Shown: positions 46,552 through 64,000 of the stretch, piece by piece
Position numbering within the stretch: the stretch's first letter is position 1
How the letters are laid out: the number at the start of each line of letters is the position of its first letter
Source: Thalassobius sp. Cn5-15
Lineage (GTDB): Bacteria; Pseudomonadota; Alphaproteobacteria; Rhodobacterales; Rhodobacteraceae
Direction of reading: 5' to 3'
Assembly: GCF_022347685.1 (NCBI RefSeq)
Contig: NZ_JAKRGF010000004.1
Location: 124,001 to 188,000, forward strand
DNA: 64,000 bases
Made by a program: the position numbers and the translations under genes
Notes under the pieces: model-generated
What the model saw: the letters and a program-made list of their open reading frames with translations, nothing else
What the model was told of the DNA's origin: nothing
The model's database searches: none

Positions 46552-46627
46552 CTTCTCTCTCCGATGTTGAACCCTGCCTGTCGCGGCAGGAGATGAAAAC
46601 TTGGTCAATCGTTAATGGGGTATGTCG

Positions 46628-47557: not shown

Positions 47558-48310
47558 TCATTCCTGTGACCGCAGTTTTGACCGCATCACATGACCGGGC
47601 AGAATGGCGAAGTTCTTGGCATAACGCGACGCCAGCCGCGCTGGATTGCCCAGCATCCGCCATAGCCATTCCATTGCCATCTGGCGAACCCATCGCGGTG
47701 CGCGTGTCTGCGTTCCCGCCAGAAAATCCAAGCCCGCCCCTATAGAGACAAAGCCAAGGTCGGGCGTCAGCTGACGGCCGCGCGCGGCGAACCGCTCTTG
47801 TTTTGGAGCCCCCAGTGCCAACAGGCAGACCCGCGCGCCTGCATCCTGCGCAGCGTTCAGAATATCGACGGCCTCCTCACCCATCGGGTCAAACCCCATC
47901 TTGGGTGCATGTTGATAGGCGATTTTCAGATCGGGATTTTCAGCGCGCAGCGCCTCCGCCGCGCGGGACAGGGCGTCTGCCTGGCTGCCGATCAGCGCAA
48001 TCGGTACCTGATGCGCAGCACAGAGTGTGGTGATCGGCAGAACCAGATCGGACCCCGGCATCAGATCTACAGGCCGGCCCGCCAGCCGTGACATCCAGAC
48101 AATCGGGTTGCCATCAGCCACCACCAGATCCTGTGCTCGATAGGCCTGCCGGAATGCCTCATCACGGCGCAGTTTTTCCAGATGGTCCATGTTCAGTGTC
48201 GCCAGCGCAAATCCTTGATGGGCTTCAAACCGCTGTACCAGCGCCTGCTGCAACCCCGCCCATTCAGCGACATTCACTGAGAGAGAGTAGGACCCGATCC
48301 AGAATTTCAT
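47558..48310 (-). CDS. WecG/TagA/CpsF-family glycosyltransferase
   Basis: The 250-residue protein matches the GT26 family: LATLNMDHLEKLRRDEAFRQ near residue 38, VVADGNPIVWMSRLAG near residue 64, and ALGAPKQERFAARG near residue 165. Such enzymes add N-acetylmannosaminuronic acid, N-acetylmannosamine or related sugars to a lipid-linked intermediate at the membrane face. It is divergent from the polysaccharide operon that begins at 48506, sharing a 195-base control region. It is probably an early glycosyltransferase of that locus. The exact sugar cannot be read from sequence. Confidence 0.9.
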   Translation of the reverse strand: MKFWIGSYSLSVNVAEWAGLQQALVQRFEAHQGFALATLNMDHLEKLRRDEAFRQAYRAQDLVVADGNPIVWMSRLAGRPVDLMPGSDLVLPITTLCAAHQVPIALIGSQADALSRAAEALRAENPDLKIAYQHAPKMGFDPMGEEAVDILNAAQDAGARVCLLALGAPKQERFAARGRQLTPDLGFVSIGAGLDFLAGTQTRAPRWVRQMAMEWLWRMLGNPARLASRYAKNFAILPGHVMRSKLRSQE

Positions 48311-48466
48311 GCAATTCCCCGATACACTGGATTAATTACGTTGGTTATGACTTTATAAATATCGCAATAGTAGATGCGACTTCGCTATCAAATTGAAGGG
48401 GCTTTGCCCAGTATTGGCTTTGGGCGTGGTTTCTGACGCACTATGTGACAATACGCACGACGTTCA

Positions 48467-48488
48467 GGCCCACCACGAAGAGTGGGCC
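48467..48488 (+). promoter_or_regulatory. Leader hairpin before the second polysaccharide operon
   Basis: GGCCCAC (48467-48473) and GTGGGCC (48482-48488) form a perfect 7-bp stem with an eight-base loop, immediately before GGAGGGTGA and the GTG start at 48506. No T-run follows, so it may affect translation or mRNA stability. Confidence 0.45.
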
Positions 48489-48505
48489 GTGTTGGAGGGT
48501 GACAA

Positions 48506-49636
48506 GTGATCAAAGGCGATGTGGTTCTGATAGGTTGCGGCTTTGTTGCCGACCTCTATATGCGGTCATTTCAGACTTTCCCCGGTATTCGTATCCTTGG
48601 CGCTTATGATCACGCCCCCGCGCGGCTGCAGCGGTTTTGCGATTACTGGGATTTGCCGCGCTTTGCCTCGCTGTCTGATTGTCTGGCGGCGCTGCCGCAG
48701 GGCGGTGTGGCGCTGAATCTGACCAACCCGTCAGCGCATTTTGTGGTCAACAAGGCGATTTTGGACGCAGGTCATCATTGCTATTCGGAAAAGCCACTGG
48801 CCTTGGAAATGACAGAGGCGAAGGTGCTCTATGATCTGGCACAGGCGCGTGGGCTGATGCTGTCTTCGGCCCCCTGTAGCGTGCTGGGGGAGGCGGCGCA
48901 GACACTGGCGCAGGCGGTGCGTGATAAGGTGGCTGGCCCCGTTCGATTAATCTACGCAGAGCTGGACGATGGGTTCATTCCGCAGGCTCCGCTAGAGGAT
49001 TGGAAGAGTGAGAGTGGCGCGCCCTGGCCTTTTGAGGATGAGTTTCAGGTGGGCTGCACGCTGGAACATGCGGGGTATTACCTCAGCTGGTTGATTGCGA
49101 TGTTCGGCACCGTGCGTCGGGTTGTTGCCGCCTCGGCAGAGGTGTTGCCGGACAAGCGCGGCGTAGCAGATACCGCGCCCGATTTTTCGGTCGCAACCCT
49201 GTTTTTTGAAGCGGGCCCGGTGGTGCGGTTGACCTGTTCCATCGCCGCGCCCCATGATCACCAGATCCGCGTTGTTGGCGACAAAGGCGTCTTGGTGGTG
49301 AAACAGGCCTGGCACAATGGCGCGGCCGTGCGATTTCATCGCCGGTTCCGATTGCGCCGACGCTTGATCGACAGCCCATTGGGGCGTCGTCAGCGCTTGC
49401 GGGAGGTAACGCCGCCCAAGGTCGGGCGGCGCGGCGCGGCCTCGATGAACTTCGCGCTTGGCGTGGCAGAGATGTTGGCCGCTCTGGTGGATGATCGGGG
49501 CTGCAGATTGTCGAATGAGTTCGCGCTTCACCTTAATGAGGTCACATTGGCCATTCAAAACGCGGGCGAAACATCGGGTGCATGCACGATGACCAGCCGC
49601 TGTCCGCCGATGGCGACGGTTGGCTGGCCAGCGTAA
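48506..49636 (+). CDS. Gfo/Idh/MocA-family NAD(P)-dependent oxidoreductase
   Basis: The 376-residue protein starts at GTG with GGAGGG upstream. It has a Rossmann fold with VVLIGCGFVADLY at the N-terminus and the family's catalytic lysine motif YSEKPLALEM near residue 94, followed by the C-terminal beta-sheet domain. Such enzymes oxidise or reduce nucleotide sugars, for example in the making of uronic or amino-sugar precursors. It is first in the operon of sugar-modifying enzymes and glycosyltransferases, so its substrate is probably a sugar nucleotide. Confidence 0.85.
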   Translation: MIKGDVVLIGCGFVADLYMRSFQTFPGIRILGAYDHAPARLQRFCDYWDLPRFASLSDCLAALPQGGVALNLTNPSAHFVVNKAILDAGHHCYSEKPLALEMTEAKVLYDLAQARGLMLSSAPCSVLGEAAQTLAQAVRDKVAGPVRLIYAELDDGFIPQAPLEDWKSESGAPWPFEDEFQVGCTLEHAGYYLSWLIAMFGTVRRVVAASAEVLPDKRGVADTAPDFSVATLFFEAGPVVRLTCSIAAPHDHQIRVVGDKGVLVVKQAWHNGAAVRFHRRFRLRRRLIDSPLGRRQRLREVTPPKVGRRGAASMNFALGVAEMLAALVDDRGCRLSNEFALHLNEVTLAIQNAGETSGACTMTSRCPPMATVGWPA

Positions 49637-49688
49637 CGAAGGGCGTCAATAGTTTAGACGATCTGGTGTTTGAGTAGATGAGGGTTTT

Positions 49689-50693
49689 GTGACAGATCAG
49701 GCAATGCAAGGCAAAGAGACGGGGCAGGTGTTGCGGCTGTTGATCACCGGCGCGACGGGCGCGTTGGGGTGTGAAGTGGTGCGCCAGTGTCTGGTCGCGG
49801 GCCATCATCTGACGTTGGTTGTACGTGATCCGTCCCGCTGTCCGCCAGCGTGGCGGATTGATCAACGCATTACAGTGGTTGAGCGTGATCTGACCTCAAT
49901 AACCGAGCTGCCGCAGGCAGATGTGGTGCTGCACCTCGCGGCGTCCCTCTCTGGCGATGCTGCGAAGCAGCAGAAAAATACCGTCGAGGCGACGCAGTCG
50001 TTGATGTGCGCAGCACAGCGAAGCGAGGTGCCTCCTGCGATCGTGCTGGCGGGGTCGATGTCTGTTTATTCGGCGATGCATCTGTCTGCGGGGGATGTGG
50101 TGGACGAAACCCGACCACTAGAGGATCAGCCGCATCTGCGAGACGCCTATTGTCACGCCAAGTTGGCGCAGGAACAGATGTGTCGCGACGCTGCTGTTGC
50201 CATGAACGTCCCGCTGCAAATCCTGCGGATTGGGGCCATTTGGGGCCCGGGGCGTTTGTGGAATGCCCATCTTGGCGTCATGTTGGGGCCGGTTTTCTTG
50301 CGTCTTGAAAACAAGGGCGAGTTGCCGCTATCCCACATTCGCCATGCTGCACAGGCGCTGCGATTGGCGGCAGAGGCGGCGGCGCGCGGGCAGTCGGATG
50401 TGATCAATGTGGTGGACAGTGATTTGCCGGATCGCACAACCTATCTGGCGCAGCATCGGCGCACAGGCTGGCCGCGTCTGGTGCTGCCGTTCCCATGGAA
50501 AATATTGGCGCTGGCAGCGCGGTTGACCCGGTCCTGTTTGCCGATTGGTCTGTTGAAATTGCCAACTATACGCTATCGTATGATGCCATTGCGTTTTGCC
50601 AACACGGCATTGACCGAACGCCTCAAATGGCGGCCTGAGGCAGGGTTTCAGACATTGATGGATGAGGCCGTGCGGCGGGGGGGTAAGCCATGA
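49689..50693 (+). CDS. NAD-dependent epimerase/dehydratase (extended SDR)
   Basis: The 334-residue protein starts at GTG 49689 with GATGAGGG upstream. It has the NAD-binding glycine motif LITGATGALGCEVVR near residue 17 and the active-site YCHAK (YxxxK) near residue 155, with the serine in VLAGSMSVY. It probably epimerises or dehydrates a nucleotide sugar. Its stop overlaps the next start (ATGA), linking it to the GT4 gene. Confidence 0.87.
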   Translation: MTDQAMQGKETGQVLRLLITGATGALGCEVVRQCLVAGHHLTLVVRDPSRCPPAWRIDQRITVVERDLTSITELPQADVVLHLAASLSGDAAKQQKNTVEATQSLMCAAQRSEVPPAIVLAGSMSVYSAMHLSAGDVVDETRPLEDQPHLRDAYCHAKLAQEQMCRDAAVAMNVPLQILRIGAIWGPGRLWNAHLGVMLGPVFLRLENKGELPLSHIRHAAQALRLAAEAAARGQSDVINVVDSDLPDRTTYLAQHRRTGWPRLVLPFPWKILALAARLTRSCLPIGLLKLPTIRYRMMPLRFANTALTERLKWRPEAGFQTLMDEAVRRGGKP

Positions 50694-51961
50694 CTGATCA
50701 GATCCACATCGCCTACCTCACTGGTGAATATCCTCGCGCTACCGATACTTTCATCCAGCGTGAGGTTGCGGCGCTGCGCGATCAGGGATTTACCGTCTCC
50801 ACCTGTTCCATCCGCCGCACAGGGGCGGAACATCTGGTAGGCGCCGAACAGTGCGCCGAACAGGCTCGCACCTTCCATGTGCTGGAGGCTGCGCTGAGCC
50901 CGTTGACCGCTCTGCGCGCGCACTGGCGGGCGCTGTGCAACCCGCGTCGTTATCTGCGGGCGCTGAAACTTGCGCTAACAACCTCTCCCGGCGGGATCAA
51001 ACCGACGATTTATCAGCTGTTCTACTTTGCCGAAGCTGTGGTGCTGGCTGATCATCTACGGACCCATGACGTGCAGCATCTGCACAACCACATTGCCAAG
51101 GCCAGCTGCACCGTGGCCATGCTATGCGAGGAGTTAAGCGGTATTCCCTATAGCTTCACCCTGCATGGGCCGGACATCTTCTTTGAACCCATACGCTGGC
51201 GTCTGGATGCGAAAATCGCGCGGGCGCGGTTTGTTGTCTGCATCAGTGATTTCTGTCGCTCACAAGGGATGAGTTTTGCGCACCGTCGCGATTGGTCGCG
51301 GATGCACATCGTGCACTGCGGCGTGACGCCAGAGCGGTATGACAGCGCGCCCAATCGCACTGGCAATCACCTGTTGTTCGTGGGGCGTCTGGCCGCTGTT
51401 AAAGGCGTGCCTGTCTTGTTGGAGGCGCTGGTCGAGGCGCGGCGCGAAAACCCCGAACTGCATCTGTCTCTGATTGGAGATGGGCCCGAGCGGGCAGAGT
51501 TGGAGGCCGAGGCGCAGGCGCTGGGATTGGGGCATGCGGTTCAGTTCCTTGGCTACCGTTCGCAGTCAGCGGTTGCGGAAATGCTATCCGAGGTGGACGC
51601 ATTGGTCCTGCCCAGTTTCGCCGAAGGTGTTCCCGTGGTGTTGATGGAGGCAATGGCCGCAGGCCTGCCCGTGGTCACAACCCGCATCGCGGGCATTCCC
51701 GAACTGGTGGATGATGGGGTCAGCGGTCATGTGGTGTCACCGGGCGATGTTGATGCGTTGAGACGTGCATTGCGCGACGTGCTGGCGGATGCTGACGGCG
51801 CCGCACAGATGGGCGCAGCGGGTCGCGCCAAGGTGAAGGCTGAATTTGACATCGCGCAGGAGGCGGCGCGCTTGGGTGGCTTGTTCCGTGCTTATCATGG
51901 GGGCAAATCGCCGAATGTGGTGCGCGCGCCATTGCCAGATAAGGCGGGGGATCGACCATGA
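50690..51961 (+). CDS. Glycosyltransferase family 4 protein
   Basis: The 423-residue protein is a GT-B glycosyltransferase: an N-terminal acceptor domain starting HIAYLTGEYPRATDTFIQRE, and a C-terminal donor domain with LLFVGRLAAVKGVPVLLEAL near residue 225 and the EX7E-type motif FAEGVPVVLMEAMAAGLPVV near residue 307. It is close to colanic-acid-type enzymes that transfer a sugar from NDP-sugar with retention. ATGA overlaps at both ends couple it to the epimerase and the GT2. Confidence 0.92.
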   Translation: MTDQIHIAYLTGEYPRATDTFIQREVAALRDQGFTVSTCSIRRTGAEHLVGAEQCAEQARTFHVLEAALSPLTALRAHWRALCNPRRYLRALKLALTTSPGGIKPTIYQLFYFAEAVVLADHLRTHDVQHLHNHIAKASCTVAMLCEELSGIPYSFTLHGPDIFFEPIRWRLDAKIARARFVVCISDFCRSQGMSFAHRRDWSRMHIVHCGVTPERYDSAPNRTGNHLLFVGRLAAVKGVPVLLEALVEARRENPELHLSLIGDGPERAELEAEAQALGLGHAVQFLGYRSQSAVAEMLSEVDALVLPSFAEGVPVVLMEAMAAGLPVVTTRIAGIPELVDDGVSGHVVSPGDVDALRRALRDVLADADGAAQMGAAGRAKVKAEFDIAQEAARLGGLFRAYHGGKSPNVVRAPLPDKAGDRP

Positions 51962-52929
51962 CCCAGCCCACCGTCGCCGCCGTTGCCATTGGCCGTAACG
52001 AAGGGGAACGCTTGATCCGCTGCCTTATCAGCCTGCGCGGGCAGGTGGATCAGGTGGTCTATGTTGATTCCGGTTCCACCGATGGATCTGTGCAGGCAGC
52101 GCGGGATTTGGGTGTTGCGGTGGTGGAGTTGGACGCCTCTGCGCCCTTCACCGCCGCGCGGGCGCGCAATGCGGGGTTTGACGTCTTGCGTCAGGATTTG
52201 CCCACGTTCGTGCAATTCGTCGATGGCGACTGCGGGGTTGAAGATGGCTGGATTGCCGCCGCACTGGATGCTTTTTCGGGGCGCGAGGATTTGGCCATTG
52301 TCACCGGATGGCGCTACGAGGTGCATCCTGAGGCCAGTGTTTACAACCGCCTCGTGGACTATGAATGGCACCGTCCAGCTGGTGACATTAGTGCCTGCGG
52401 GGGCGACATGATGGTGCGCAGTGCGGATTTCATCGCGGTGGGTGGATTTGACCCAACCGTGATTGCCGCCGAAGATGATGAGTTCTGCACCCGCCTTCGC
52501 AAATCCGGCAGGCATCTGCTGCGTATCCCGCTGGCGATGACGCGCCATGACGCAGCTATGTTGCGCTTTGGTCAATGGTGGCAGCGCGCGGTACGATCCG
52601 GCCATGGCTTTGCGCAGGTGGGGGATTTGCACCCCGATTACTTTCGTCCTGAACGGCGGCGTGTGATGCTGTACGGTGGCGTGCTGCCTGCGATCGCCCT
52701 TATCGGGGCCCTATGGTTCTGGCCGCTACTGCTGCTGGTGGTTGCCCTCTATACGATATCGTATGGTCGCACAGTGCAGGGGCTACGGCGCGGGGATTTG
52801 CCGCGTAAAGAGGCATTGCATCAGGCTCTCTTCCTCAGCCTGTCGAAATGTCCCAATCTTTCCGGCATGATCCGCTACCATCTGCGCAAAGCGCGCGGGC
52901 GTGCCATGCATATTATTGAATACAAGTAA
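51958..52929 (+). CDS. Glycosyltransferase family 2 protein
   Basis: The 323-residue GT-A enzyme has VAAVAIGRNEGERLIRCL at its start, VVYVDSGSTDGSVQAARDLG near residue 30 and the metal-binding DGD in FVQFVDGDCGVED near residue 85. One or two C-terminal hydrophobic helices (about residues 236-262) may hold it at the membrane. It transfers a sugar, with inversion, to the growing polysaccharide repeat. The start overlaps the GT4 stop (ATGA). Confidence 0.9.
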   Translation: MTQPTVAAVAIGRNEGERLIRCLISLRGQVDQVVYVDSGSTDGSVQAARDLGVAVVELDASAPFTAARARNAGFDVLRQDLPTFVQFVDGDCGVEDGWIAAALDAFSGREDLAIVTGWRYEVHPEASVYNRLVDYEWHRPAGDISACGGDMMVRSADFIAVGGFDPTVIAAEDDEFCTRLRKSGRHLLRIPLAMTRHDAAMLRFGQWWQRAVRSGHGFAQVGDLHPDYFRPERRRVMLYGGVLPAIALIGALWFWPLLLLVVALYTISYGRTVQGLRRGDLPRKEALHQALFLSLSKCPNLSGMIRYHLRKARGRAMHIIEYK

Positions 52930-52940
52930 GGAGGCCCGAT

Positions 52941-55028
52941 TTGCCGCATTCTTCCTCCACCCCTCGCCGGATCGGCATTATTGGCGCTGGCTATATCGCC
53001 ACCTGGCACGCAGATGCGCTGAAGGCTTCGCCTCATGCGACTGTGACGGCTGTTTGTGACGTGTCGCTTAGTACGGCAGAAGCTTTGGCAGCGGGGTACG
53101 GTGCGCAGGCTTTTGGGTCGGTGGCCGATATGGTGGCGGCCGAGGTGGTTGATGCGGTGCACATCTTGACGCCGCCGCATTTACACCTGCCCATCGCGCT
53201 GGAGTGCATTGCGGCAGGACTGGACATACTGGTGGAGAAGCCAGTAGCAGAAAGTGCGGCTGAGCTGCGCCAGATTGCGGATGCCGCAGCGGCGGCTGGG
53301 GTGCAGTTTCACGCCGGTCACAACTTCCTTGCCGTACCGGGCTATCAGCGGCTGAAACAGGCGTTGGATCAGGGCCGCATCGGGCGGCTGTCATCGGTTG
53401 AGGTGAACTGGCATCTGCCCTTGGCCCCGTTGCGGTCGGGGCCGTATGGTTTGTGGCTGCTGCGAGAGGCCCGCAACTTGCTGCTGGAATTGGGTCCGCA
53501 TCCGTTTTCTTTTGCTGTGGACCTGCTGGGTCCGCTGACGATCAAACACCTAGAGGTCAACCAGCCGATCACCCTGCCGGGTGGGGCGGTGCGCCATCAG
53601 GGCTGGCGCATCCTGGCAGAGGCAGGGGATGTGGCGGTGACGCTGAATCTGTCGATGGTGGAAACTCATGATGACCGCTCGCTCACTTTGCGGGGATCGT
53701 CGGGTTTGGCGCGGCTTGATTATGCGGCGGACGCTTTGGTTCTGGCGTCTGACAATGCGGCGGATCTGGTGATGAACCCGTTCTTGAAACAGATGTCTCT
53801 GGCGGGGCAGCACCTGCGCGAGGGGGTGGTGAACGCCGCCCGACAGTTGGTGACATTGAATCAGAAATCGCCCTACGGCCTCAGCTTCCGCGGTATGGTC
53901 GATGCGGTCTGGGGGCCGCAAACTTCGCCACAGTTTGCGCCCGAGGGGGCGGGCCATGTGATGCAGGCGATTGACGATGCTCTGGCGATGATGCCTGCGC
54001 CGGTTGAGGCTATGACAGTCACCGGCACCCCCGCCCCCCGCGTGATGGTCATTGGGGGTACCGGATTTATCGGCCGCAACCTGACCCGTCGTCTGGTTGC
54101 CGCAGGGCATGATGTACGGGTTCTCAGCCGGGGATCGTTTGGACCTTTTGCCGATCTTGCCGATCATGTGGAAACCATGGCCGTTAGCCTGCGAGACAAA
54201 CAGGCCCTTATCGCGGCGATGGACGGCATCGACGTGGTGTTCAATCTGGCGAAGTCTATGGATAACACATGGGAGGCCGCGCTGGAAAACGATGTGGGGA
54301 CTGCCCTGCGCATTGCTGAGGCGGCACAGGATGCGGGTGTGAAGCGGCTGATCTACACCGGGACCATCGCATCCTACGACATGTCGGATCCACGCCAGAC
54401 AATTACCGAGGATACGGAATTCGGTGACATGTCCAGTCGCAACCTCTATGCGCGCTCCAAGGCGGAGTGTGAGGCGCGGCTGCTTCAAATGCACTGCGAC
54501 AGTGACCTGCCTTTGGTCATTGCCCGCCCCGGTATCGTGATTGGCGAAGGTGGGCCGCTACAACATTGGGGCATCGGGCGTTGGCATGGTGCCGGGGCGG
54601 TGCGGATCTGGGGCGGTGGTGACCATACGCTGCCGTTTGTGCTGGCCGATGATGTGTCTGATGCGCTGATTATGATGATGGACCACTCTGATGCGGTGGG
54701 CCGTAGTTTCAATCTGATTGGCGACCCCATGTTGTCTGCGCGCGGCTATTTCGACGCGATCGAGCAGTCGCTGGGCGCACGGATAAAGGTGCGTCGCGGC
54801 AGCCTCATTGTCTTCTGGGCGGTGGATGGGATGAAGTATCTGCTGAAAACTAAGGTGCTGCGCCGCCATGGTGTTGTGCGTCCCTCGCTCAAGGATTGGC
54901 AGAGTCGCGCGCATTTCTCCCTTTTTGACAATGCGCAGCCTAAAGCGGTGCTGGGCTGGCAGCCGGAAGCGGACGCAAAGCGTTTTGTGGACCGTGGCAT
55001 CCGCGACGCAAACCTGTTCGGTCTATAG
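52941..55028 (+). CDS. Fusion of a Gfo/Idh/MocA oxidoreductase and an SDR epimerase
   Basis: The 695-residue protein joins two NAD-dependent enzymes. Residues 1 to about 350 are a MocA-type oxidoreductase (IGIIGAGYIATWHADAL near residue 11, LVEKPVAESAAEL near residue 96). Residues from about 368 form an extended SDR (VMVIGGTGFIGRNLTRRLVA, then YARSK as YxxxK, with IYTGTIASY before it). TTG at 52941 is the start, with AAGGAGG six bases upstream and no in-frame ATG at a better place. It would carry out two consecutive steps on one sugar nucleotide, for example oxidation or reduction plus epimerisation; the substrate is unknown. Confidence 0.88.
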   Translation: MPHSSSTPRRIGIIGAGYIATWHADALKASPHATVTAVCDVSLSTAEALAAGYGAQAFGSVADMVAAEVVDAVHILTPPHLHLPIALECIAAGLDILVEKPVAESAAELRQIADAAAAAGVQFHAGHNFLAVPGYQRLKQALDQGRIGRLSSVEVNWHLPLAPLRSGPYGLWLLREARNLLLELGPHPFSFAVDLLGPLTIKHLEVNQPITLPGGAVRHQGWRILAEAGDVAVTLNLSMVETHDDRSLTLRGSSGLARLDYAADALVLASDNAADLVMNPFLKQMSLAGQHLREGVVNAARQLVTLNQKSPYGLSFRGMVDAVWGPQTSPQFAPEGAGHVMQAIDDALAMMPAPVEAMTVTGTPAPRVMVIGGTGFIGRNLTRRLVAAGHDVRVLSRGSFGPFADLADHVETMAVSLRDKQALIAAMDGIDVVFNLAKSMDNTWEAALENDVGTALRIAEAAQDAGVKRLIYTGTIASYDMSDPRQTITEDTEFGDMSSRNLYARSKAECEARLLQMHCDSDLPLVIARPGIVIGEGGPLQHWGIGRWHGAGAVRIWGGGDHTLPFVLADDVSDALIMMMDHSDAVGRSFNLIGDPMLSARGYFDAIEQSLGARIKVRRGSLIVFWAVDGMKYLLKTKVLRRHGVVRPSLKDWQSRAHFSLFDNAQPKAVLGWQPEADAKRFVDRGIRDANLFGL

Positions 55029-55107
55029 AAATCTGGTGCTTTACCGGCTGTTCACCACGATGCGGGCACATTTTTGCCTATGTTCGCGCGCTACATGAAG
55101 GAGAGGT

Positions 55108-55135: not shown

Positions 55136-55165
55136 TTTGCACCCGTGTAAGGGTTAGGCGATAGT

Positions 55166-56269
55166 ATGGTTGAGCAGTCGAAGAAAGCAATTCGTCAAAA
55201 ACGGCAAGCCCGCCGTGCGGCCCGCGCTGCGCAGGCGGCGGCTGAGGCATTGCAGGATACCCCCGTGGAAGAGGGTAAGCGCGAGGGTGGTTTCCTGATG
55301 CCCAGCGGCACCACTGCTGACGATATCGCTGATCAGGACCGTGCCCTGCGCGCGGCCTTCCCAATGTGGGAAGAGGATGAGGCAGAAGATGAGGTCGTCT
55401 CTTCTGCTGAACCTGTGCCTGAGCCTGCCGTTGAGGTTGCGCCTGCGCTGAAACCAGCCCCACTTCTGCTGACCCCTGCCGAAGCAGCACCCGCCGTGGA
55501 AAATATCGCTGCGGTATCGCACGATGACATCAAGGAAGAGGCGGTGGACGACTGGCCGTTTCTGGGTCCAATGCCGGTGCAGCGCGGCGCACTGTCGCGC
55601 AATCTGATCATCACCGCCAGTCGCCGCAATTCTGTGCATGCAGCCTTCGACGTCTTACGGACGCGGTTGGTGCAGGCGCTGTCGGAAAACGGCTGGAAAC
55701 GGGTTGGGATAACCTCGCCCACGCGCGACTGCGGCAAAACCTTTGTGTCGGTCAATCTTGCTGTGGCCCTGTCACGTTATGACAATTGTCGCACGGTGCT
55801 GATGGATATGGATATGCGCAATCCTAGTGTTGCCAAAACGCTGGCACTGCGCGATGTGGGCAGCATCGGTGACTATCTGCGCGGGCAGGTTGCGACTCGC
55901 GATCAGTTTTTCAAGTTTGACCGCAACGACCTGAAGATTGGCGATAATCTGGCGGTTGCAATGAATGAACAGGTAGAGAGTTTTGCTGGTGAGTTGTTGC
56001 AGCAACCCGAAACTCGCGAACGCCTGCAACAGATGGAGGAGGAGCTGCATCCCGATGTGGTCCTCTTCGATCTGCCGCCTGCGCTGGCGAATGACGATGT
56101 TATTGCCTTCAAGTCGCAGTTTGATGGTGTGTTGGTCGTGATTGACGGCACCCGCACCAGTGCCGCACAGGTGCGGGAAGTGATGCGCCGTCTGGGCAAG
56201 GATACCCCGCTTCTGGGCGTTGTGCTGAATAAGGCCGAAGATGCCACTGGCGAGGAATATCGCTACTAA
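55166..56269 (+). CDS. CpsD/CapB-like tyrosine autokinase with long N-terminal extension
   Basis: The 367-residue protein is a free-standing BY-kinase. About 130 N-terminal residues are basic at first and then acidic and proline/alanine-rich, and likely disordered. The kinase part has Walker A SPTRDCGKTFVSVN near residue 183, A' TVLMDMDMRNPS near residue 210 and Walker B DVVLFDLPPAL near residue 293. The C-terminus EEYRY offers two tyrosines. It should pair with a Wzz-type membrane activator; the nearest lies convergently at 56348. It ends the plus-strand polysaccharide operon. Confidence 0.88.
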   Translation: MVEQSKKAIRQKRQARRAARAAQAAAEALQDTPVEEGKREGGFLMPSGTTADDIADQDRALRAAFPMWEEDEAEDEVVSSAEPVPEPAVEVAPALKPAPLLLTPAEAAPAVENIAAVSHDDIKEEAVDDWPFLGPMPVQRGALSRNLIITASRRNSVHAAFDVLRTRLVQALSENGWKRVGITSPTRDCGKTFVSVNLAVALSRYDNCRTVLMDMDMRNPSVAKTLALRDVGSIGDYLRGQVATRDQFFKFDRNDLKIGDNLAVAMNEQVESFAGELLQQPETRERLQQMEEELHPDVVLFDLPPALANDDVIAFKSQFDGVLVVIDGTRTSAAQVREVMRRLGKDTPLLGVVLNKAEDATGEEYRY

Positions 56270-56336
56270 TCCTGTGGAAATCACCAAAACAGACCAAAGG
56301 TCCCGGCATTGTCAGGGCCCGTTTGTGTATGTGCCA

Positions 56337-56346
56337 GGGGGGGGGG
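56337..56346. repeat. G10 homopolymer next to the Wzz stop codon
   Basis: Ten consecutive G lie at 56337-56346, one base beyond the TGA of the Wzz gene on the minus strand (56348-56350). Such runs vary in length by slippage, but here the protein end is not altered. It may be a sequencing-sensitive site. Confidence 0.8.
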
Positions 56347-56347
56347 C

Positions 56348-57604
56348 TCAGCCGCGCCCGAACAGACCGGCCAGACGCCGCCGCAGCGGTGGGCGGTCGG
56401 TGTTGGCAGCGGTGTAGCCACGCGGTGTGCGCAGGTGCGGAATGATCACCACAGGGCGCACATCCAATGCTTGCTCCACATGGCGACTGGTGCGCAGCAC
56501 GGGGCTGAGAAGCTCTATCAACAGCGCCAGCCCCAGCGCCCCGAAGACCGAGGCGATGCATCCCGCCAATACGATCTTAAACTTGCGTGAGGTGACCGCG
56601 TATTCCGGCACCAATGCGGTTTCCAGAACCTCGAACCGTTCGAACTGATCCTGACTTTCCAGCTGGCGAGCCATCGCGGCCTCTGTCCGGCGCTGGGTGA
56701 TCTGTTGGTATTCGGTCTGCAGCTGTGCCGATTGACGCGCCAATAGGGTAAAGACACGCTCCACCTCTGGCGCGCCGGCCAGGGCGCGTTCGATACCAGC
56801 GATCCGCTCGTTCACCAGCGCGATCTGCTGGCGCAGTACCTCTGCCTGACGGACGCGTTCATCGGTGCGCAACCGTTCCGAACTGGTTTCGATCTGAATC
56901 AGCCGGTTTTCCAGCGTCAACTGGTTCTGCCGCAACAGCGCCAGCTGTTCGCGCTGGTCAGTGATCACGCTTGGCAGCGAGTCGGCGTGTTGTTCTTTGT
57001 AGCGTGCGAATTCAATCTCGAGTGCGTCCATCGCGGCGCTGATGCGTGCCTCTTCGGCCTCAAAGAAGGCAAGCGTCTGGGTTGTCTGGCCTTCGCTGCG
57101 TTTTTTGCCCTCAACCAGCACCTGTGCCAGCAGCTCGTTGGCTACATCTGCGGCCTGCTCGGGATCTTCCAGCCGTGCGGTGATCACCAGACCTGAGGGT
57201 TGTACATCGGTGCGCCATGCCTGAGAGGGGTCGATCAATTCGACAATTTCCACAGATTCACGCAAGGCGGTGACCTTTTCCGCCTGTGTCAGATCGGCAG
57301 AGCGGTTGAACAGATCAAATTTTTCCACCACAGCCAGCACGCTGTCGCGTGACATTAGTTTTTGTTCGATCAGCTTCAAGCGGTTGCGGTTGTTGCTGGA
57401 CACAATCGCTGTGCCCGCGCCTTGCAGCGCGGTGGAGACCTGCGGTGCCTCGATCTGGATGACCGCGCTGGCTTCATAGACCGCGGGGCGGTTCAACGCA
57501 AACAGCACGGACAGAATGGATCCGCAGATCATGGTCGCAATGATCAGCAAGGCACGCCGGCACAAAATCCGATAAAGGCTGGAGGGAGAGATTAGAGAGC
57601 TCAT
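56348..57604 (-). CDS. Wzz/GumC-type polysaccharide chain-length determinant
   Basis: The 418-residue protein has two transmembrane helices, near residues 15-36 (ALLIIATMICGSILSVLFAL) and 375-396 (VLAGCIASVFGALGLALLIE), with a periplasmic part between them that is rich in coiled coil (RLRTDERVRQAEVLRQQIA). It has no kinase domain and ends with a short basic tail. It should act with the separate CpsD-like kinase encoded convergently 78 bases away. ATG 57604 (MSSLISPSSLYRIL) is chosen because TM1 then lies at the expected place. Confidence 0.9.
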   Translation of the reverse strand: MSSLISPSSLYRILCRRALLIIATMICGSILSVLFALNRPAVYEASAVIQIEAPQVSTALQGAGTAIVSSNNRNRLKLIEQKLMSRDSVLAVVEKFDLFNRSADLTQAEKVTALRESVEIVELIDPSQAWRTDVQPSGLVITARLEDPEQAADVANELLAQVLVEGKKRSEGQTTQTLAFFEAEEARISAAMDALEIEFARYKEQHADSLPSVITDQREQLALLRQNQLTLENRLIQIETSSERLRTDERVRQAEVLRQQIALVNERIAGIERALAGAPEVERVFTLLARQSAQLQTEYQQITQRRTEAAMARQLESQDQFERFEVLETALVPEYAVTSRKFKIVLAGCIASVFGALGLALLIELLSPVLRTSRHVEQALDVRPVVIIPHLRTPRGYTAANTDRPPLRRRLAGLFGRG

Positions 57605-57637
57605 AAATCGTCCTGTCGTGCGATACCGTCGCGTACT

Positions 57638-57658
57638 TGCGGACAAAACACGTCCGCA
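57638..57658 (-). promoter_or_regulatory. Inverted repeat in the Wzz leader
   Basis: TGCGGAC (57638-57644) and GTCCGCA (57652-57658) form a perfect 7-bp inverted repeat with a seven-base loop, 34 bases upstream of the Wzz ATG. It could be an operator or leader hairpin. No T-run makes a terminator unlikely. Confidence 0.45.
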
Positions 57659-57764
57659 TACTGCGTTTAGGTTAGCAGATCTGGCGCTTTGTTCCCAATT
57701 TTTTGGGGTATTTAGGGTGGAAACAATTTCTTTCTGGATCGTGGATCGGCGCCATGTTTCTGCC

Positions 57765-58778
57765 TTATTTGGTGGGGTTTTCGGCAAAAATGCCACTCAG
57801 GGGTTGGGTTTTGACCACCTCCCAGGTGATTTCTTGCATCAAACGGGCGGTTTCTGCGGGAATCGGGCTGAATGCGCTGCCATCAGTGCGCGTCAATTCA
57901 TGAGGCAGGCCGACGGGGGATCGCTGGTAGATCGTTGCAAAATGGGTCAGCGCCGTCAGATAGGCGCCCAGATCGTTGATGTGGATCGGATCTAGATCAC
58001 CCGATTCGGTGCGCGCAAACAGATCGTTGCGATCCTGCATGCCCGGCATACCGCCGCGGGCCTCTACCGCCCGGGTGACGGCGGCCATGACCTGACCGGT
58101 GGGTATGACGTGGATGCGTGTCGCCTCTGGCAGGTTCAGCAGTGCGGGGAATAGGATCTGACCTGTCCAATAGCGATCCAGATCCAGATCCAACCTGGTC
58201 AGCCATCCTGCGGGATCTGTCACCTCATGCCATGTTTCATAGAAATAGATCCGCACGTTCGGATTGCCTTGCCGCGCCAAACGCGCCCAGTTGGTCAAGG
58301 CCTCGGCACTGTCGAAATAGGCGATGGCATCGCGGATCTCGACCATCTCGGTCAGCACAACGGCGTCATAGTCACCAGAGGTCAGCGCCTCTTTGGCGTC
58401 GCGGTAGTGGGGGTGAGCGTTTTCAGTGTCAAAGCCGTTGATCGTCTCGGCGGGATCCCAATGCGCGCGTAGTGGCGTGCCCCAACCCAGTTGTGAATGA
58501 TGATCTGGTGCGGTGCCAAAATGCGCGGCGGTCAGCTGTTGTAGCATCACCGGCATATCGCGACCCACCAGTGAATGCCCAAGGTGAAAGACCGCGCCTG
58601 CCTGATCCAACCCGTCCGCAGGTACGGCAAATCGCGCCGCGATGTCGGGATCTGTGCGAGGGATCACCGTGGGTGCCATGAGGGGTGGGATCACCTCCAT
58701 CGCCATACGGATCAGTATGGCCAGCGCGGCCAATGATAAAACCGGATATCGTCTGATGTGTCGCAACACAGAGACCAT
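57765..58778 (-). CDS. SGNH-hydrolase-like membrane-anchored protein
   Basis: The 337-residue protein has a single N-terminal hydrophobic helix (PVLSLAALAILIRMAMEVI, about 12-30) and a predicted periplasmic domain. Two elements resemble SGNH/GDSL esterases: VFHLGHSLVGRDM, with a candidate nucleophile Ser69, and LDPIHINDLGAYL near residue 270, which fits the DxxH block. Such proteins often add or remove acetyl groups on surface polysaccharide. It follows the phosphopantetheinyl transferase by 15 bases and precedes wzz by 160. Family assignment is moderate; enzymatic role is inference. Confidence 0.6.
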   Translation of the reverse strand: MVSVLRHIRRYPVLSLAALAILIRMAMEVIPPLMAPTVIPRTDPDIAARFAVPADGLDQAGAVFHLGHSLVGRDMPVMLQQLTAAHFGTAPDHHSQLGWGTPLRAHWDPAETINGFDTENAHPHYRDAKEALTSGDYDAVVLTEMVEIRDAIAYFDSAEALTNWARLARQGNPNVRIYFYETWHEVTDPAGWLTRLDLDLDRYWTGQILFPALLNLPEATRIHVIPTGQVMAAVTRAVEARGGMPGMQDRNDLFARTESGDLDPIHINDLGAYLTALTHFATIYQRSPVGLPHELTRTDGSAFSPIPAETARLMQEITWEVVKTQPLSGIFAENPTK

Positions 58779-58793
58779 CGCGTTTCTCCCGTC

Positions 58794-59462
58794 TCAGCGA
58801 TCCTTGAGGGTGCAGGCAGAAATGACCCACCGGTCAGTTTGCACATAACGCCCTGTGGCGACAAACCCTGTTTGGAATGAACCCAGCTGTTGATTGAACC
58901 GCGCGGCGAACCGGTCGCCGTCTAACGTCACATCGAGTGCCTGAAAGTCGCACAGCTGATGGGTTAATGGATATTGCGCCTTGTAGACGGCTTCTTTGAT
59001 GGAAAAGAGGACTTTAACCTGCTGAGCGCGGCGCCAGAAAGGCAGTTGCACCAGCGCTCGCTGTTCGCGTGAGGTGAGGATGATCGACCATGCTTCTTTC
59101 TCCAGCGGAGCGGTATTTTCGATGTCTACCCCGACAGCGCGCCAGACAGACATGGGGCAGGCCACTGCGACGCAGAGGTTGGCGCAATGGCTGATTGACC
59201 CCATGATGCCTGCGGGCCAGACGGGACTGCGATCTGCGGCTTGCGGGATGGCCTGCGGTGGCATGTTGATGTCCGCCAGCGCCATGCGGGCAGCAGCGCG
59301 GCCGGCGGCAAATTCGATCTGTCGCTTGGGGATTGCATTGGTGACAGCAGGCTGTTCGGGTGCCATCAGGGTATGGGAGGTGTCGCGGGGGTTGGTCACG
59401 CCGACCCCGACATCCGATCCAAAAAGATCCCGTAGGATCACACAAATTTTGCCGTTCACCAT
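58794..59462 (-). CDS. 4'-phosphopantetheinyl transferase (Sfp/EntD type)
   Basis: The 222-residue protein has the Sfp-superfamily motifs: RQIEFAAGRAAARMAL near residue 47, the substrate loop MGSISHCANLCVAVAC near residue 87, the metal site AVGVDIENTAPL near residue 109 and FSIKEAVYKAQYP near residue 152. It transfers phosphopantetheine from CoA to the serine of a carrier domain; EntD-like members serve NRPS. It begins 9 bases after the NRPS gene, so it is very probably dedicated to that enzyme's carrier domain. Confidence 0.92.
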   Translation of the reverse strand: MVNGKICVILRDLFGSDVGVGVTNPRDTSHTLMAPEQPAVTNAIPKRQIEFAAGRAAARMALADINMPPQAIPQAADRSPVWPAGIMGSISHCANLCVAVACPMSVWRAVGVDIENTAPLEKEAWSIILTSREQRALVQLPFWRRAQQVKVLFSIKEAVYKAQYPLTHQLCDFQALDVTLDGDRFAARFNQQLGSFQTGFVATGRYVQTDRWVISACTLKDR

Positions 59463-59471
59463 TCTGTCGTT

Positions 59472-62400
59472 CTAGTGGTTTCTCTTGGCCATACGGCGCT
59501 TGCGCATTTCCCGGCGCCGCGCCATTGCGTCGCTTCTTGATTGGGGGCCATCCTGTGCGGTTTGAGTTGTGGGCGCAAGGGGCGTGTGGTTTTCTGTTGC
59601 GGCGGGCGTGCTGGGCTTGGTGGAGAGACCTTCGGTCAGTTTGGCGCACAATGCCTCCAGTACGGGGAAGCGGAAGATATCCGTGATCGCCAGAGAGGTT
59701 GCGCCCAGTCGCATACGGATTTCACGGTGGGCCTGTACCGCCAGTAGCGAATGACCGCCGAGGTCAAAGAAGTTGTCGCGCGGCCCGATCTGATGCACGC
59801 CAAGGATATCGGACCAGATCGCGGCCACCTGATGTTGAATGTCGTCGCTGAGCGGCAGGGCTGGCACGGCTTCGGCACGGCGCGTTTCGGGCGCGGGCAG
59901 GGCGTTGCGGTCAATCTTCTTGTTTGGCGTCAGTGGGAACTGATCCATTCTGACAAAGGCGCTGGGCACCATATAGTCGGGCAGATTAGTCGCTAGACCC
60001 GCGCGCAGGGCCGCTTCATCTACGGCAGCAGAGGCCGTGTAATAGCCCACCAGCTGCGTGGTGCCAGAGGTGCCGTCGCGGGCCACGACCACCGCCTGCG
60101 TGATGGCGGCATTGGTTGCGATTGCAGCCTCAATCTCTCCCAGTTCAATCCGGTAACCGCGCAGTTTTACCTGATGGTCGGCGCGGCCCAGATAATCCAG
60201 ACGTCCGTCACCGCGCCAGCGCACCAGATCGCCGGTGCGGTAGATGCGGTTGCCGGGGATAAACGGATCGGGCAGGAAACGTTCCGAAGTCAGATCCTCG
60301 TGCTGCCAATAGCCACGCGTCACACCCGCGCCACCGATATACAACTCCCCCTCCGCACCGATGGGCATCGGCTGCATCTGGTCATCCAGCACATAGACCT
60401 GCTGGTTGGCCAGTGGTGTGCCGATATTAGCGGTTGCCTCATCGCCCGTCGCAGCCGCTGTGGTGGACCAGATCGTGGTTTCGGTCGGCCCATACATGTT
60501 GCTAATCCGCGCCTCTGTCACGCTGCGCAGGTCGGAGACCAGATCACCGGGCAAAGCCTCCCCCCCGATCAGCAGGTGATTGATCCGACCAAGAGCGAAG
60601 CGCGCCTCATCGTTCATCGCAATCATCCGCGCCATCGACGGGGTACATTGCAGGTGGGTTACATCATGGCGTAGAATTTGCGCTGCGATGGAGAAGTCAT
60701 CGTCGGCCAGTGTATCGCAAACATTCGCCCCTTCCAGTACGCGGGCCAGATGAGTCAGCCCCTGCAACACGGTTTTCTTTTCAATGCCATAGTCGATTAG
60801 GCACGCGACCTCATCCACGCCGATGCGTTTCAGTTGTTCGACCCGCGCCAGGCAGTCATTCACGGTACCAAATAGCCCTGAGTCTTCAAAATACCGCTGA
60901 AAAGCGAAATCAAGGATCGCCTCCAGCTCTTCCCCGTCGAGCGAGTCGAGGTTGAGGTCAAAGGCGTTTTTCACTCCCTCAGGCCGCTTGAAGGCGGGAA
61001 AGGCCCAAGCGAATTGCTTGATCAGCCCAGCGGCAGAGCGCAGATAATCCTTCATCGGCTCACGGGCGATGTCGCGGGCGGCTTCGCGATCCTCTGCCAC
61101 AAAGGTGTGTAGCATCAGCGTCACGGTGAAATCCGCCGGATCATGGCCTGCCTCGCGCAGGGCGGCGTGGTAGATCTTGATCTTTTCACCCACTTCCTCA
61201 ATCGACTGGCCCAGAAGGTGGGTTAGCACATTGGCGCCGATCTCTCCCGCTTCGCGCCATGTGGCGGGATTGCCTGCGGTGGTGACCCAGATTTGCAACG
61301 TCTTCGACACTGGGCGCGGTTGGGTGACGATGGGGTGCATGGAGCCATCGCCCATGGGAAACTCAACCGCTTCGCCACGCCACAGTGCGCGTAGCTGTTC
61401 TATGCTGCGCAGCATGGCGGGTTTGTTTTCCGGGGGGGTGTTTTCAGGGCGCAGAACAAAATCATGCGGCTGCCAGCCTGAGGCAATGCCGATGCCTGTG
61501 CGCCCGTTGGTCAGGTTGTCGATCACCGCCCATTCCTCTGCCACCCGCGCGGGATGGTGAAGGGGGGCAACGCAGCTGCCTGCACGTACGGCGATGTTCT
61601 GGGTCAGCGCGGCAACAGCGGCACCGGTCACAGACGGGTTGGGATAAGGCCCACCAAAGGCGTGGAAGTGGCGTTCTGGCGTCCAGACCGCGCAGAACCC
61701 GTTCTGGTCGGCGAATGTCGCCCCTTCGAACAACAGTTCGTACTTGTCACGGCCGACGCCATCATCGTTGCCCCAGTAAAACAGGCTGAAATCCATGCCG
61801 CGGCCTGTCTGATTCACCGGCCCAGATGACACCAGTGCACGGTTGTCGTCCGCGGACAGCACCAGCTTGAAACCGCGCGTCAGGGTATAGAACAGTTCCA
61901 ACACCGAAATGTCGAAGTTCAGCGAAGTGACTGCCAACCATACGGTACCGTCTGCCGGGCAGATCACCCCGTCCATACCTGTGAAGAAGTTGCTAAGGTT
62001 GCGGTGTTCGACCATTACCCCTTTGGGCCGCCCGGTGGAGCCAGAGGTATAGATCATATAAGCCAGATCGCTGCCTGCGACCACGACATCCAGATTGTCA
62101 GTGGGCGCTGACAGGATGCGTGGATCCCTGTCCATCGCCAGCACCTCTGCCTGATGGGCCGGCAGATCGCCCAGCATGCCTTGTTGGGTGACGATAATCT
62201 GGCAAGCGCTATCTTCAACATATAGTGCGATGCGATCCGGCGGGAACGCGGGGTCCAGCGGTACATAGGCGCCGCCAGCCTTTAGGATGCCAAGGGCACC
62301 GATTATCAGATGTGGCGTGCGTTGAGTGTTGAGGCCGACGAGCGTTCCGGGTTTCACCCCCAAATCGCGCAAAACATGCGCCACCTGATTGGCGCGGGTG

Positions 62401-63998
62401 TTCAGTTCCAGATAGGTGAAACTGTCGCCTTCCACCACCAATGCTGTAGCATGCGGAGTCTGCGCGACCTGCCGTTCAAACATCTGATGCAGGCAGAGGT
62501 CAGCGTTATAATCGACCGCGGTCTGGTTCCAATCGCTTAGAACCATCTCTCGCTCTGCTGTGGCAAGACGGGGTAGGTCTGCAATGGCCCCGTCGGCGCT
62601 GGCCAGCATGCCGACGCGGGCGGCCAGTGCGGTGAGCATCGGCTGCGGTACCTGTGCAGCGTCAGCCCGTAAGGTTGGTGCGGGCGACAGGCATAGTGTA
62701 ACCAGTGCATCAGGGCAGGGATCTACGCTGTCACTGATGGCAAGCAGTGGCTGCGCTTGCAGCGCACCAGGCAGGCGGGCAGGAAGGTCTGCAGCGACAG
62801 CGCCAAGGGAACGTGCCTGCGTTAGGGCGGCGTGTAATGTCTCATGTGCTTTCGTCACATCCGCGTCGGTGACCATGCGCAGTGGTGTCCACGGCAACAG
62901 ATAGGCGTCCGCCGATGGACGCGACGCGTGATAGGCCAGATCGACACTTGCATTGCCGGTGATTTGCGCCGCGACCAGTCCCCATGCGGTGATTGCCTGA
63001 TCAGCGGGCAAGTCCAATGGTTGCTCCAGCAGACCGGTTGCTCCCGTAGGCATGGCGGGCAGGGTCGCTGGTGTCAGCGTTTCAAACAACGGGCGCAGCA
63101 TGGCCTCGGCCTGTGCGGCGGGTTGCAGGGCTGCGGAGATGTCAGCGGTTTCTGTCGCGTCAGGCTGCGTCAGGCGGGCGCCAACCACAGGCAGCGCGAT
63201 GTCAAAGGCGCGGTCATTTAGCGCGCTTAATTTGCTGAAGATCACCGCCCCATCGCCGCAGGCCACGGTCAGTGCGTCCGCATCCGCCGCGAGTACCGTG
63301 CCCGGCGCTGTGCCTGCGGGCACTGTCAGGGTTGCGGGTTGTGCGCTGCCAACCAGCGCTAGCCTGTCCGCCAGCGTGATCTTGGCGCAGCAGAGTGGGT
63401 TCCAGTATCCACCATGATCCAGCGCCCGTACCAAAGCGCTGATTTCACCTGCGCCTTGGGTGAAATCCAGGTGTCCACCGGCTGCGGGCCGATCGCTGAA
63501 CCCATAATAACTGCGCTGGGCGAAATCCTGCGGCTGCCCCGCGACGTCCCCTGTTTCCAGCAGGTCCATCAGATCGGGGAAGCTGTCCAGCGCTGCTTCA
63601 TAGCAGCGGGTGTTCAGGGTCAGAGCAGTGTCATTTGGGTGAATGTCAAACAGACGTTGCACCAGAATATTGCCGCGATCGGCGCCGCTGGTGATGTGGT
63701 GCCAGCTGATGCCATGGCGGGCCTCGCCATTTTTCAGCGCCCATACGGGGGCGTTTAGGCCGGCATAGGCGGGCAGCGGGCCATCGTGGAAATTGATTCC
63801 GCCGCGCTGCGGGCATGCCAGCACATCGGCGTCCAGCATGTCGAGGTTGGCAATCGACAGCAGCCAGTCGAAGGTCGCAGGCAGGTGCGTCACCAGATCC
63901 GGGCCGGGGGTAATGGTATGCAGCCCCTTTTCTGCTGCCCAGACGGCGACGTCTTTGGACCGTGTGACCACCGCCGCCACGCCATGTCCGCGCGTCAA
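59472..63998 (-). CDS. NRPS: formyltransferase, adenylation domain with inserted luciferase-like monooxygenase, carrier domain; 5' end cut
   Basis: The visible 1508 residues contain, in order: a formyltransferase domain (about 1-190; N69, H71 in GINFHDGPLPAYAG and D106-107 region in SGADRGNI give the Asn/His/Asp triad); a poorly defined linker (about 240-480); the N-terminal part of an adenylation domain (505-705; A3 YTSGSTGRPKGV at 650-661, A4 FDIS at 695-698); a luciferase-like flavin monooxygenase (about 735-1070, MDFSLFYWGNDDGVG to RIGVDEVACLIDYG); the rest of the adenylation domain (1100-1370; A5 YGPTETT, A7 YRTGDLVR, A10 TPNKKIDRN); a carrier domain with Ser1417 in DLGGHSLLAV; and a basic tail. 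No condensation or thioesterase domain is visible. The true start lies beyond the window. Confidence 0.9.
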   Translation of the reverse strand: MTRGHGVAAVVTRSKDVAVWAAEKGLHTITPGPDLVTHLPATFDWLLSIANLDMLDADVLACPQRGGINFHDGPLPAYAGLNAPVWALKNGEARHGISWHHITSGADRGNILVQRLFDIHPNDTALTLNTRCYEAALDSFPDLMDLLETGDVAGQPQDFAQRSYYGFSDRPAAGGHLDFTQGAGEISALVRALDHGGYWNPLCCAKITLADRLALVGSAQPATLTVPAGTAPGTVLAADADALTVACGDGAVIFSKLSALNDRAFDIALPVVGARLTQPDATETADISAALQPAAQAEAMLRPLFETLTPATLPAMPTGATGLLEQPLDLPADQAITAWGLVAAQITGNASVDLAYHASRPSADAYLLPWTPLRMVTDADVTKAHETLHAALTQARSLGAVAADLPARLPGALQAQPLLAISDSVDPCPDALVTLCLSPAPTLRADAAQVPQPMLTALAARVGMLASADGAIADLPRLATAEREMVLSDWNQTAVDYNADLCLHQMFERQVAQTPHATALVVEGDSFTYLELNTRANQVAHVLRDLGVKPGTLVGLNTQRTPHLIIGALGILKAGGAYVPLDPAFPPDRIALYVEDSACQIIVTQQGMLGDLPAHQAEVLAMDRDPRILSAPTDNLDVVVAGSDLAYMIYTSGSTGRPKGVMVEHRNLSNFFTGMDGVICPADGTVWLAVTSLNFDISVLELFYTLTRGFKLVLSADDNRALVSSGPVNQTGRGMDFSLFYWGNDDGVGRDKYELLFEGATFADQNGFCAVWTPERHFHAFGGPYPNPSVTGAAVAALTQNIAVRAGSCVAPLHHPARVAEEWAVIDNLTNGRTGIGIASGWQPHDFVLRPENTPPENKPAMLRSIEQLRALWRGEAVEFPMGDGSMHPIVTQPRPVSKTLQIWVTTAGNPATWREAGEIGANVLTHLLGQSIEEVGEKIKIYHAALREAGHDPADFTVTLMLHTFVAEDREAARDIAREPMKDYLRSAAGLIKQFAWAFPAFKRPEGVKNAFDLNLDSLDGEELEAILDFAFQRYFEDSGLFGTVNDCLARVEQLKRIGVDEVACLIDYGIEKKTVLQGLTHLARVLEGANVCDTLADDDFSIAAQILRHDVTHLQCTPSMARMIAMNDEARFALGRINHLLIGGEALPGDLVSDLRSVTEARISNMYGPTETTIWSTTAAATGDEATANIGTPLANQQVYVLDDQMQPMPIGAEGELYIGGAGVTRGYWQHEDLTSERFLPDPFIPGNRIYRTGDLVRWRGDGRLDYLGRADHQVKLRGYRIELGEIEAAIATNAAITQAVVVARDGTSGTTQLVGYYTASAAVDEAALRAGLATNLPDYMVPSAFVRMDQFPLTPNKKIDRNALPAPETRRAEAVPALPLSDDIQHQVAAIWSDILGVHQIGPRDNFFDLGGHSLLAVQAHREIRMRLGATSLAITDIFRFPVLEALCAKLTEGLSTKPSTPAATENHTPLAPTTQTAQDGPQSRSDAMARRREMRKRRMAKRNH

Positions 63999-64000
63999 CA

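Follow-up and report, generated by a model that had tools for sequence, protein, structure and literature searches.

A hybrid PKS-NRPS assembly line embedded in an exopolysaccharide locus of Rhodobacteraceae and its probable role in acylating the polymer

The DNA analysed here (the window) is a 64,000-nucleotide stretch of the genome of Thalassobius sp. Cn5-15 (contig NZ_JAKRGF010000004.1; G000:C12:124001-188000, so that a window coordinate is the C12 coordinate minus 124000). A Wzx/Wzy-type exopolysaccharide locus occupies its right-hand part, runs past its end and includes a gene for a nonribosomal peptide synthetase (NRPS). Because the NRPS is co-inherited with a polyketide synthase (PKS), a glycosyltransferase (GT2b) and the flippase of the locus, it appears to belong to the polysaccharide, as one half of a PKS-NRPS assembly line. 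The locus probably uses this line to make an acyl decoration of the polysaccharide repeat unit. In other words, a two-protein assembly line, of a type to which antibiotics are commonly ascribed, sits among sugar-polymer genes, and its product is most likely a small chemical group that decorates the polymer.

Layout of the locus

The sequence-only reading had described a minus-strand set of NRPS, phosphopantetheinyl transferase (PPTase), SGNH-like protein and Wzz facing a plus-strand operon of sugar-modifying enzymes, glycosyltransferases and CpsD kinase. The open reading frame list and domain searches placed all of these genes, their strands, the 9-base and 15-base gaps and the split-kinase arrangement as that reading had them. 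The window end cuts the NRPS gene, whose start lies 64 bases further on (G000:C12:183472-188064, minus strand, 1530 residues), and the locus extends ~16.7 kb beyond the window to a full length of ~33 kb. In the extension, PKS and GT2b precede the NRPS in operon order, and a flippase, a putative polymerase and a priming transferase are also present. PKS, GT2b, NRPS and PPTase are four genes that overlap or lie at most 9 bases apart. The two arms of the locus converge at 56270-56347, where a scan for a terminator or promoter gave no signal above chance.

Co-inheritance of the cassette with polysaccharide genes

Evidence for the link comes from 198 Rhodobacteraceae genomes, sampled at about one per genus. 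The NRPS was found in 69 of them, about a third of the sampled genera. The PKS occurred in 68 of these 69 genomes but in only 2 of the 129 NRPS-free ones, a count from which 14 genomes with only a weak or partial PKS match were excluded by hand. The corresponding fractions were 65/69 and 2/129 for GT2b, 63/69 and 6/129 for the Wzx-type flippase of the locus (with score thresholds of 1e-70 and 1e-100, respectively, chosen after the fact), and 60/69 and 2/129 for the Wzy-like protein at 335 bits or more, both exceptions being genomes with an altered NRPS. A fusion of a MocA oxidoreductase with an SDR epimerase had 31 carriers, 30 of which bear the NRPS, and the exception has a decayed one. Fisher values ranged from 1e-15 to 1e-49 and, given the kinship of the genomes, denote strong association only.

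Gene order was similarly constant. PKS, GT2b and NRPS followed one another in this order and on the same strand in 61 of the 62 loci that had the trio on one contig, and the flippase lay within 18 kb in 50 of 52 single-contig cases. In a set of 80 loci from named genomes (Roseovarius, Phaeobacter, Sulfitobacter, Shimia, Loktanella, Paracoccus, Gemmobacter, Hydrogenophaga and others), all 80 carried the trio, 72 the PPTase, and 76 a homologue of Wzx, Wzy, Wzz, CpsD, WbaP or WecG within ~10 kb. The arrangement of the trio stayed constant while the remaining polysaccharide genes were rearranged between loci. Judged from these sequence comparisons, NRPS, GT2b and PKS are a near-invariant cassette embedded in, and co-inherited with, polysaccharide genes. 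Two genomes (G163 and G157) each carry two copies of the NRPS cassette.

The link extends beyond the family to Rhizobiaceae, Phyllobacteriaceae and Hydrogenophaga. On annotated plasmids of Shinella and Aminobacter, the NRPS adjoins a PPTase, a divergent PKS, a flippase, a glycosyltransferase and priming or export genes. Two other alphaproteobacteria (G622 and G729) have NRPS and PKS together with polysaccharide genes, and in G486 the pair lies near a Wzy_C protein; G175 and G757 hold only related A-LLM modules (an A domain with a luciferase-like flavin monooxygenase, LLM) within larger NRPS/PKS clusters. Genomes filed under Hydrogenophaga (Burkholderiales; L090, L093 and L103) carry the cassette with 56-57% identity to the window NRPS. 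Most members of the alphaproteobacterial family show a similar value, and a transfer between classes is therefore suggested.

Thus, the tie between NRPS and polysaccharide locus drawn by the sequence-only reading is upheld by co-occurrence across the 198 genomes and by linkage beyond the family, and a check of the same genomes for relatives carrying one unit without the other did not indicate chance adjacency. The function of the assembly line very probably lies in the polysaccharide. Could the line instead merely share the locus and make a free small molecule, be it an antibiotic, a signal or a siderophore, to which GT2b perhaps adds a sugar? Glycine-formyl starters and alpha-hydroxylating glycine modules are indeed known from conglobatin, solanimycin and myxothiazol, and genome papers class such clusters as secondary-metabolite clusters. 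However, a free product is at odds with the near-absolute association, across genera, with Wzx, with Wzy and with the MocA-SDR fusion. The locus genes included no recognisable siderophore receptor or drug exporter, and a single extension module yields only a C4 product. A free small molecule is therefore improbable.

The two synthases and their predicted product

The NRPS consists of a formyltransferase (F; N and C parts), a linker, a glycine-type A domain (AMP-binding) interrupted by an inserted LLM, a PCP and an Arg-rich tail. The inserted domain matched TIGR04020 at 482 bits against a cut-off of 244. The domain search found no match to a condensation or thioesterase domain in the NRPS. The LLM (~750-1110) sits between the a4 motif (FDISVLELF, 717-725) and a5 (1189-1199; NMYGPTE, 1189-1195). 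The ten-residue A-domain code is DILQLGMIWK, with DILQ(L/M/F)GMIWK in relatives, and four glycine-activating A domains with an inserted monooxygenase have the identical code DILQLGMIWK (PMC12283262). In the myxothiazol and melithiazol synthetases, a flavin monooxygenase between a4 and a5 hydroxylates the alpha carbon of glycine (PMC10204066), and N-formylglycine starter modules feed a PKS in the conglobatin and oxazolomycin pathways (PMC4504003).

The formyltransferase motif N-x-H...D is kept in 98% of 80 NRPS sequences, and the predicted F-domain fold resembles ArnA and Fmt (Z ~27, rmsd 2.5-2.9 A over 284-289 residues). The F domain would provide the N-acylglycine on which such a monooxygenase acts. 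The linker (300-505), considered as a possible remnant condensation domain, has a confident predicted fold, and the matches of a structure search were taken up by the formyltransferase part. The conserved Arg-rich tail may serve to dock the NRPS to the PKS. By analogy with the characterized modules, glycine loading, formylation and oxidation at the alpha carbon are, jointly, reasonably likely.

The PKS is a single module of 2154 residues with the domain order KS-AT-KR-DH-ACP-TE. The KS Cys/His, AT GHSMG, KR Ser/Tyr, DH His/Asp, ACP Ser and TE Ser/His residues do not vary in alignments of 73 to 80 relatives, and each of the 73 PKSs has an intact set of DH catalytic residues. In the NRPS, conservation of the F and PCP motifs is 97-98%. 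Because of this conservation, both synthases look active. The sequence-only reading had taken the NRPS product, perhaps a formylated and N-oxidised amino acid, as the final group. The formylated amino acid is borne out by the N-x-H...D motif together with the glycine code. N-oxidation is unlikely, since the code and the insertion point match the alpha-carbon-hydroxylating glycine modules of myxothiazol and melithiazol, and the NRPS product is probably not the final group, given the constantly linked PKS module, which has a thioesterase and is separated from the NRPS by a single gene.

A hydroxamate siderophore (N-hydroxy-N-formylglycine) carried on the polymer had also been considered, prompted by the name of Atu3671, and was dropped because the precedent of glycine modules with an inserted monooxygenase is oxidation at carbon. 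FbnE of fabrubactin, which is reported to make alpha-hydroxycarboxylates, also counts against the hydroxamate.

Natural variants of the assembly line

Two genomes, G116 and G128, have PKS and GT2b but lack a full NRPS match. In G116 (L173:6198-15831), the NRPS has kept F, a glycine-type code (DILQLGLIWK) and PCP and lacks the monooxygenase, and the PKS has kept KS, AT, KR, ACP and TE and lacks DH. This joint loss, seen in one genome, suggests that monooxygenase and DH act on the same intermediate. In G128 (L172:9190-19512), the monooxygenase, the F motif and the PCP serine are lost and KS and AT have decayed, while the polysaccharide genes remain and look intact. Decay beside kept polysaccharide genes indicates that these genes may outlive the assembly line.

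Polysaccharide machinery and the SGNH protein

The assignment to the Wzx/Wzy type comes from matches to a flippase (PF13440) and a priming transferase (PF02397), and a Wzz and CpsD pair is present. The Wzy candidate is a polytopic protein of 477 residues with at least 8 hydrophobic segments that is strongly linked to the NRPS; it had no Pfam or NCBIfam match. No Wza exporter was found in the locus, and Poly_export occurs only elsewhere in the genome, in two genes (C9 and C17).

What does the SGNH protein do? The sequence-only reading had suggested the SGNH protein as transferase or editor; in the transferase version, the NRPS alone would make a formylated, N-oxidised amino acid and the SGNH protein would pass it to the polysaccharide. 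The formyltransferase and flavin monooxygenase domains are present, and the SGNH gene lies 15 bases from the PPTase gene. However, the thioesterase-bearing PKS is always linked, and the glycine-monooxygenase precedent is alpha-carbon hydroxylation. Furthermore, the SGNH protein has one N-terminal membrane helix (residues 11-35) and its gene is present in only 33 of the 80 named loci. A membrane-anchored protein that is absent from over half of the loci is most likely not the acyl transferase, and a cytoplasmic transferase role was dropped on these grounds; the combined scheme is thus very improbable. The predicted structure (pLDDT 92) has an SGNH fold, with a DUF4886 protein and carbohydrate esterases as best matches, and the sequence has G-H-S-L and D-x-I-H motifs. 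By this model, the protein is most likely periplasmic and accessory. A periplasmic protein could edit exported polymer but could not accept an acyl group from cytoplasmic synthases.

A secreted protein of 961 residues (L029:11919-14804) occurs in 42 of the 80 loci. Its N-terminal part is SGNH-like, it contains an RTX repeat, and its middle part drew no Pfam match. It is possibly a polymer-degrading enzyme.

Proposed route to a decorated polysaccharide

The best model is a C4 acyl group made from N-formylglycine and one malonate and attached to the repeat unit before export. The PPTase would prime the carrier domains of both synthases, as their domains and precedent suggest. The NRPS would load glycine, the F domain would formylate it, and the flavin monooxygenase would hydroxylate the alpha carbon, giving a carbinolamide that may persist or break down to an aldehyde. 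The PKS would extend this starter by one malonate, followed by reduction and dehydration, and the thioesterase would release the C4 acyl group (4-formamido, oxidised at C4) or transfer it to a sugar that is either nucleotide-activated or lipid-linked. The acylated sugar may be added or accepted by GT2b, whose gene lies between those of the synthases. Wzx would then flip the decorated repeat unit, with polymerisation by Wzy, Wzz and CpsD to follow; in loci that have it, the SGNH protein may edit the polymer outside the membrane. The exact acyl structure and its acceptor are proposed only tentatively, and the thioesterase is no more than a candidate for the acyl transfer. Of the idea that an NRPS product sits on the polysaccharide, then, the polysaccharide link and the formylated amino acid are supported, whereas N-oxidation, an NRPS-only product and the SGNH transferase are not.

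The acyl group might alternatively be part of the main chain or a reducing-end anchor, with GT2b glycosylating a hydroxyacyl group and thereby linking sugars or anchoring the polymer. GT2b is the only glycosyltransferase locked between the synthases (61/62), and KR would provide the hydroxyl. However, in bearers beyond Rhodobacteraceae and Hydrogenophaga (G622, G729, Shinella and Aminobacter), no GT2b lies between the synthases, and the DH, intact in every PKS aligned, would eliminate that hydroxyl. A main-chain or anchoring role is thus unlikely.

Several points weigh against a decoration of the repeat unit. Four of the 80 named loci had no polysaccharide machinery in the stretch examined, and the Fisher values overstate independence because the genomes are related. 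The joint loss of monooxygenase and dehydratase is known from one genome only. No published polysaccharide structure from any bearer was found, so the acyl group is unseen. The thioesterase may do no more than release a free acid.

A more speculative and rather unlikely extension is that the glycine carbon of the C4 group is oxidised to a hemiaminal (a masked aldehyde), giving a widespread exopolysaccharide latent reactive groups that could crosslink it or bind proteins and surfaces. If true, this would be a class of polysaccharide modification that originates from a PKS-NRPS and not from the chemistry of acyl-CoA or sugar nucleotides.

Comparison with known systems

The NRPS resembles MtaG and MelG of the myxothiazol and melithiazol pathways in its glycine code and in the flavin monooxygenase inserted between a4 and a5. 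However, MtaG and MelG terminate the line, cleave the peptide to an amide and are followed by a thioesterase, whereas the window NRPS is a starter that has an F domain, showed no condensation domain and lacks a thioesterase (the TE is on the PKS). It shares with the oxazolomycin and conglobatin starters the order F-A(Gly)-PCP followed by a PKS and, by prediction, an N-formylglycine start unit (PMC4504003). Those pathways have many PKS modules, form an oxazole and have no inserted monooxygenase described, whereas the window locus has one PKS module within a polysaccharide locus. No oxazole cyclodehydratase (CongE/OzmP) was noticed in the locus, where no search with a reference sequence was made.

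The sugar genes resemble methanolan-type Wzx/Wzy loci (EpsA, EpsD and EpsE; XrtA-type Wzz/kinase) in their WecG/CpsF glycosyltransferase, GT4, GT2, Wzz/CpsD and priming transferase, with scores below curated cut-offs. We know of no assembly line in methanolan-type loci. Locus-encoded acyl groups on glycans include the Vibrio cholerae O1 tetronate, the modified viosamine of Pseudomonas syringae and the Sinorhizobium RkpA system; like the present locus, these have a dedicated acyl pathway within a glycan locus. None of them, to our knowledge, involves an NRPS-PKS hybrid that formylates its substrate and contains a monooxygenase. We also know of no earlier exopolysaccharide with a modification made by a hybrid PKS-NRPS, so the decorated polymer would be the first such case.

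In genome papers on roseobacters and Paracoccus, hybrid PKS/NRPS clusters are listed among the cryptic clusters for secondary metabolites. A hybrid homoserine-lactone/NRPS/PKS cluster on plasmid pCP157_02 of Paracoccus marcusii CP157 was discussed as an antimicrobial candidate (PMC8273931); on this plasmid, the cassette lies beside EpsE, flippase, WecB/CpsF and sugar-transferase genes. A PKS/NRPS cluster common to four related genera, including Aquicoccus porphyridii and Lentibacter, has also been described, and the available passages of that source do not draw the polysaccharide link (PMC10608839). The Aquicoccus and Lentibacter loci are among the 80 named loci. A literature search found no paper linking PKS-NRPS to polysaccharide loci, most subscription papers being outside its reach. 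Should the link hold, a cryptic cluster that ranks among the commonest of a largely marine family (69/198) serves surface chemistry, with a bearing on biofilms and attachment to algae, and the place to look for its product is the polymer, not the culture extract.

Features of the locus and neighbouring regions

Genes of the exopolysaccharide locus. Coordinates are those of the window unless prefixed with C12.
Feature	Coordinates	Strand	Remarks
WecG/TagA/CpsF glycosyltransferase (EpsA-like)	47558-48310	-	domain search
GFO/IDH/MocA oxidoreductase	48506-49636	+	
SDR epimerase/dehydratase-type sugar enzyme	49689-50693	+	
GT4 glycosyltransferase (EpsE-like)	50690-51961	+	domain search
GT2 glycosyltransferase (EpsD-like)	51958-52929	+	domain search
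MocA oxidoreductase-SDR epimerase fusion	52941-55028	+	
CpsD-type cytoplasmic tyrosine autokinase, partner of Wzz	55166-56269	+	domain search
Wzz-type polysaccharide co-polymerase	56348-57796	-	PF02706, TIGR03007-like; listed start probably too long
SGNH/GDSL-fold protein	57765-58778	-	15-base gap to PPTase
4'-phosphopantetheinyl transferase (PptT/EntD-like)	58794-59462	-	9-base gap to NRPS
NRPS, part inside window	59472-64000	-	continues to window-equivalent 64064
GT2b	C12:188066-189172	-	same strand as NRPS; one base from NRPS gene
Type I PKS, 2154 aa	C12:189169-195633	-	as NRPS; 4-base overlap with GT2b
Wzx flippase	C12:195776-197134	-	as NRPS; PF13440
GT2	C12:197131-197946	-	as NRPS
GT4	C12:198144-199397	+	
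Secreted SGNH/RTX protein	C12:199418-202303		
Wzy-like protein	C12:202408-203841		
Priming sugar-phosphate transferase	C12:203950-204699		PF02397

Two further regions of the window were assigned by eye only. Positions 14187-19467 possibly hold a second, separate polysaccharide export set, whose unsplit Wzc-like co-polymerase/kinase (17215-19467) contrasts with the split Wzz/CpsD pair of the NRPS locus. Genes of phosphonate uptake and C-P lyase type, among them genes for ABC transporters, form a cluster at positions 32884-47437 that adjoins the polysaccharide locus.

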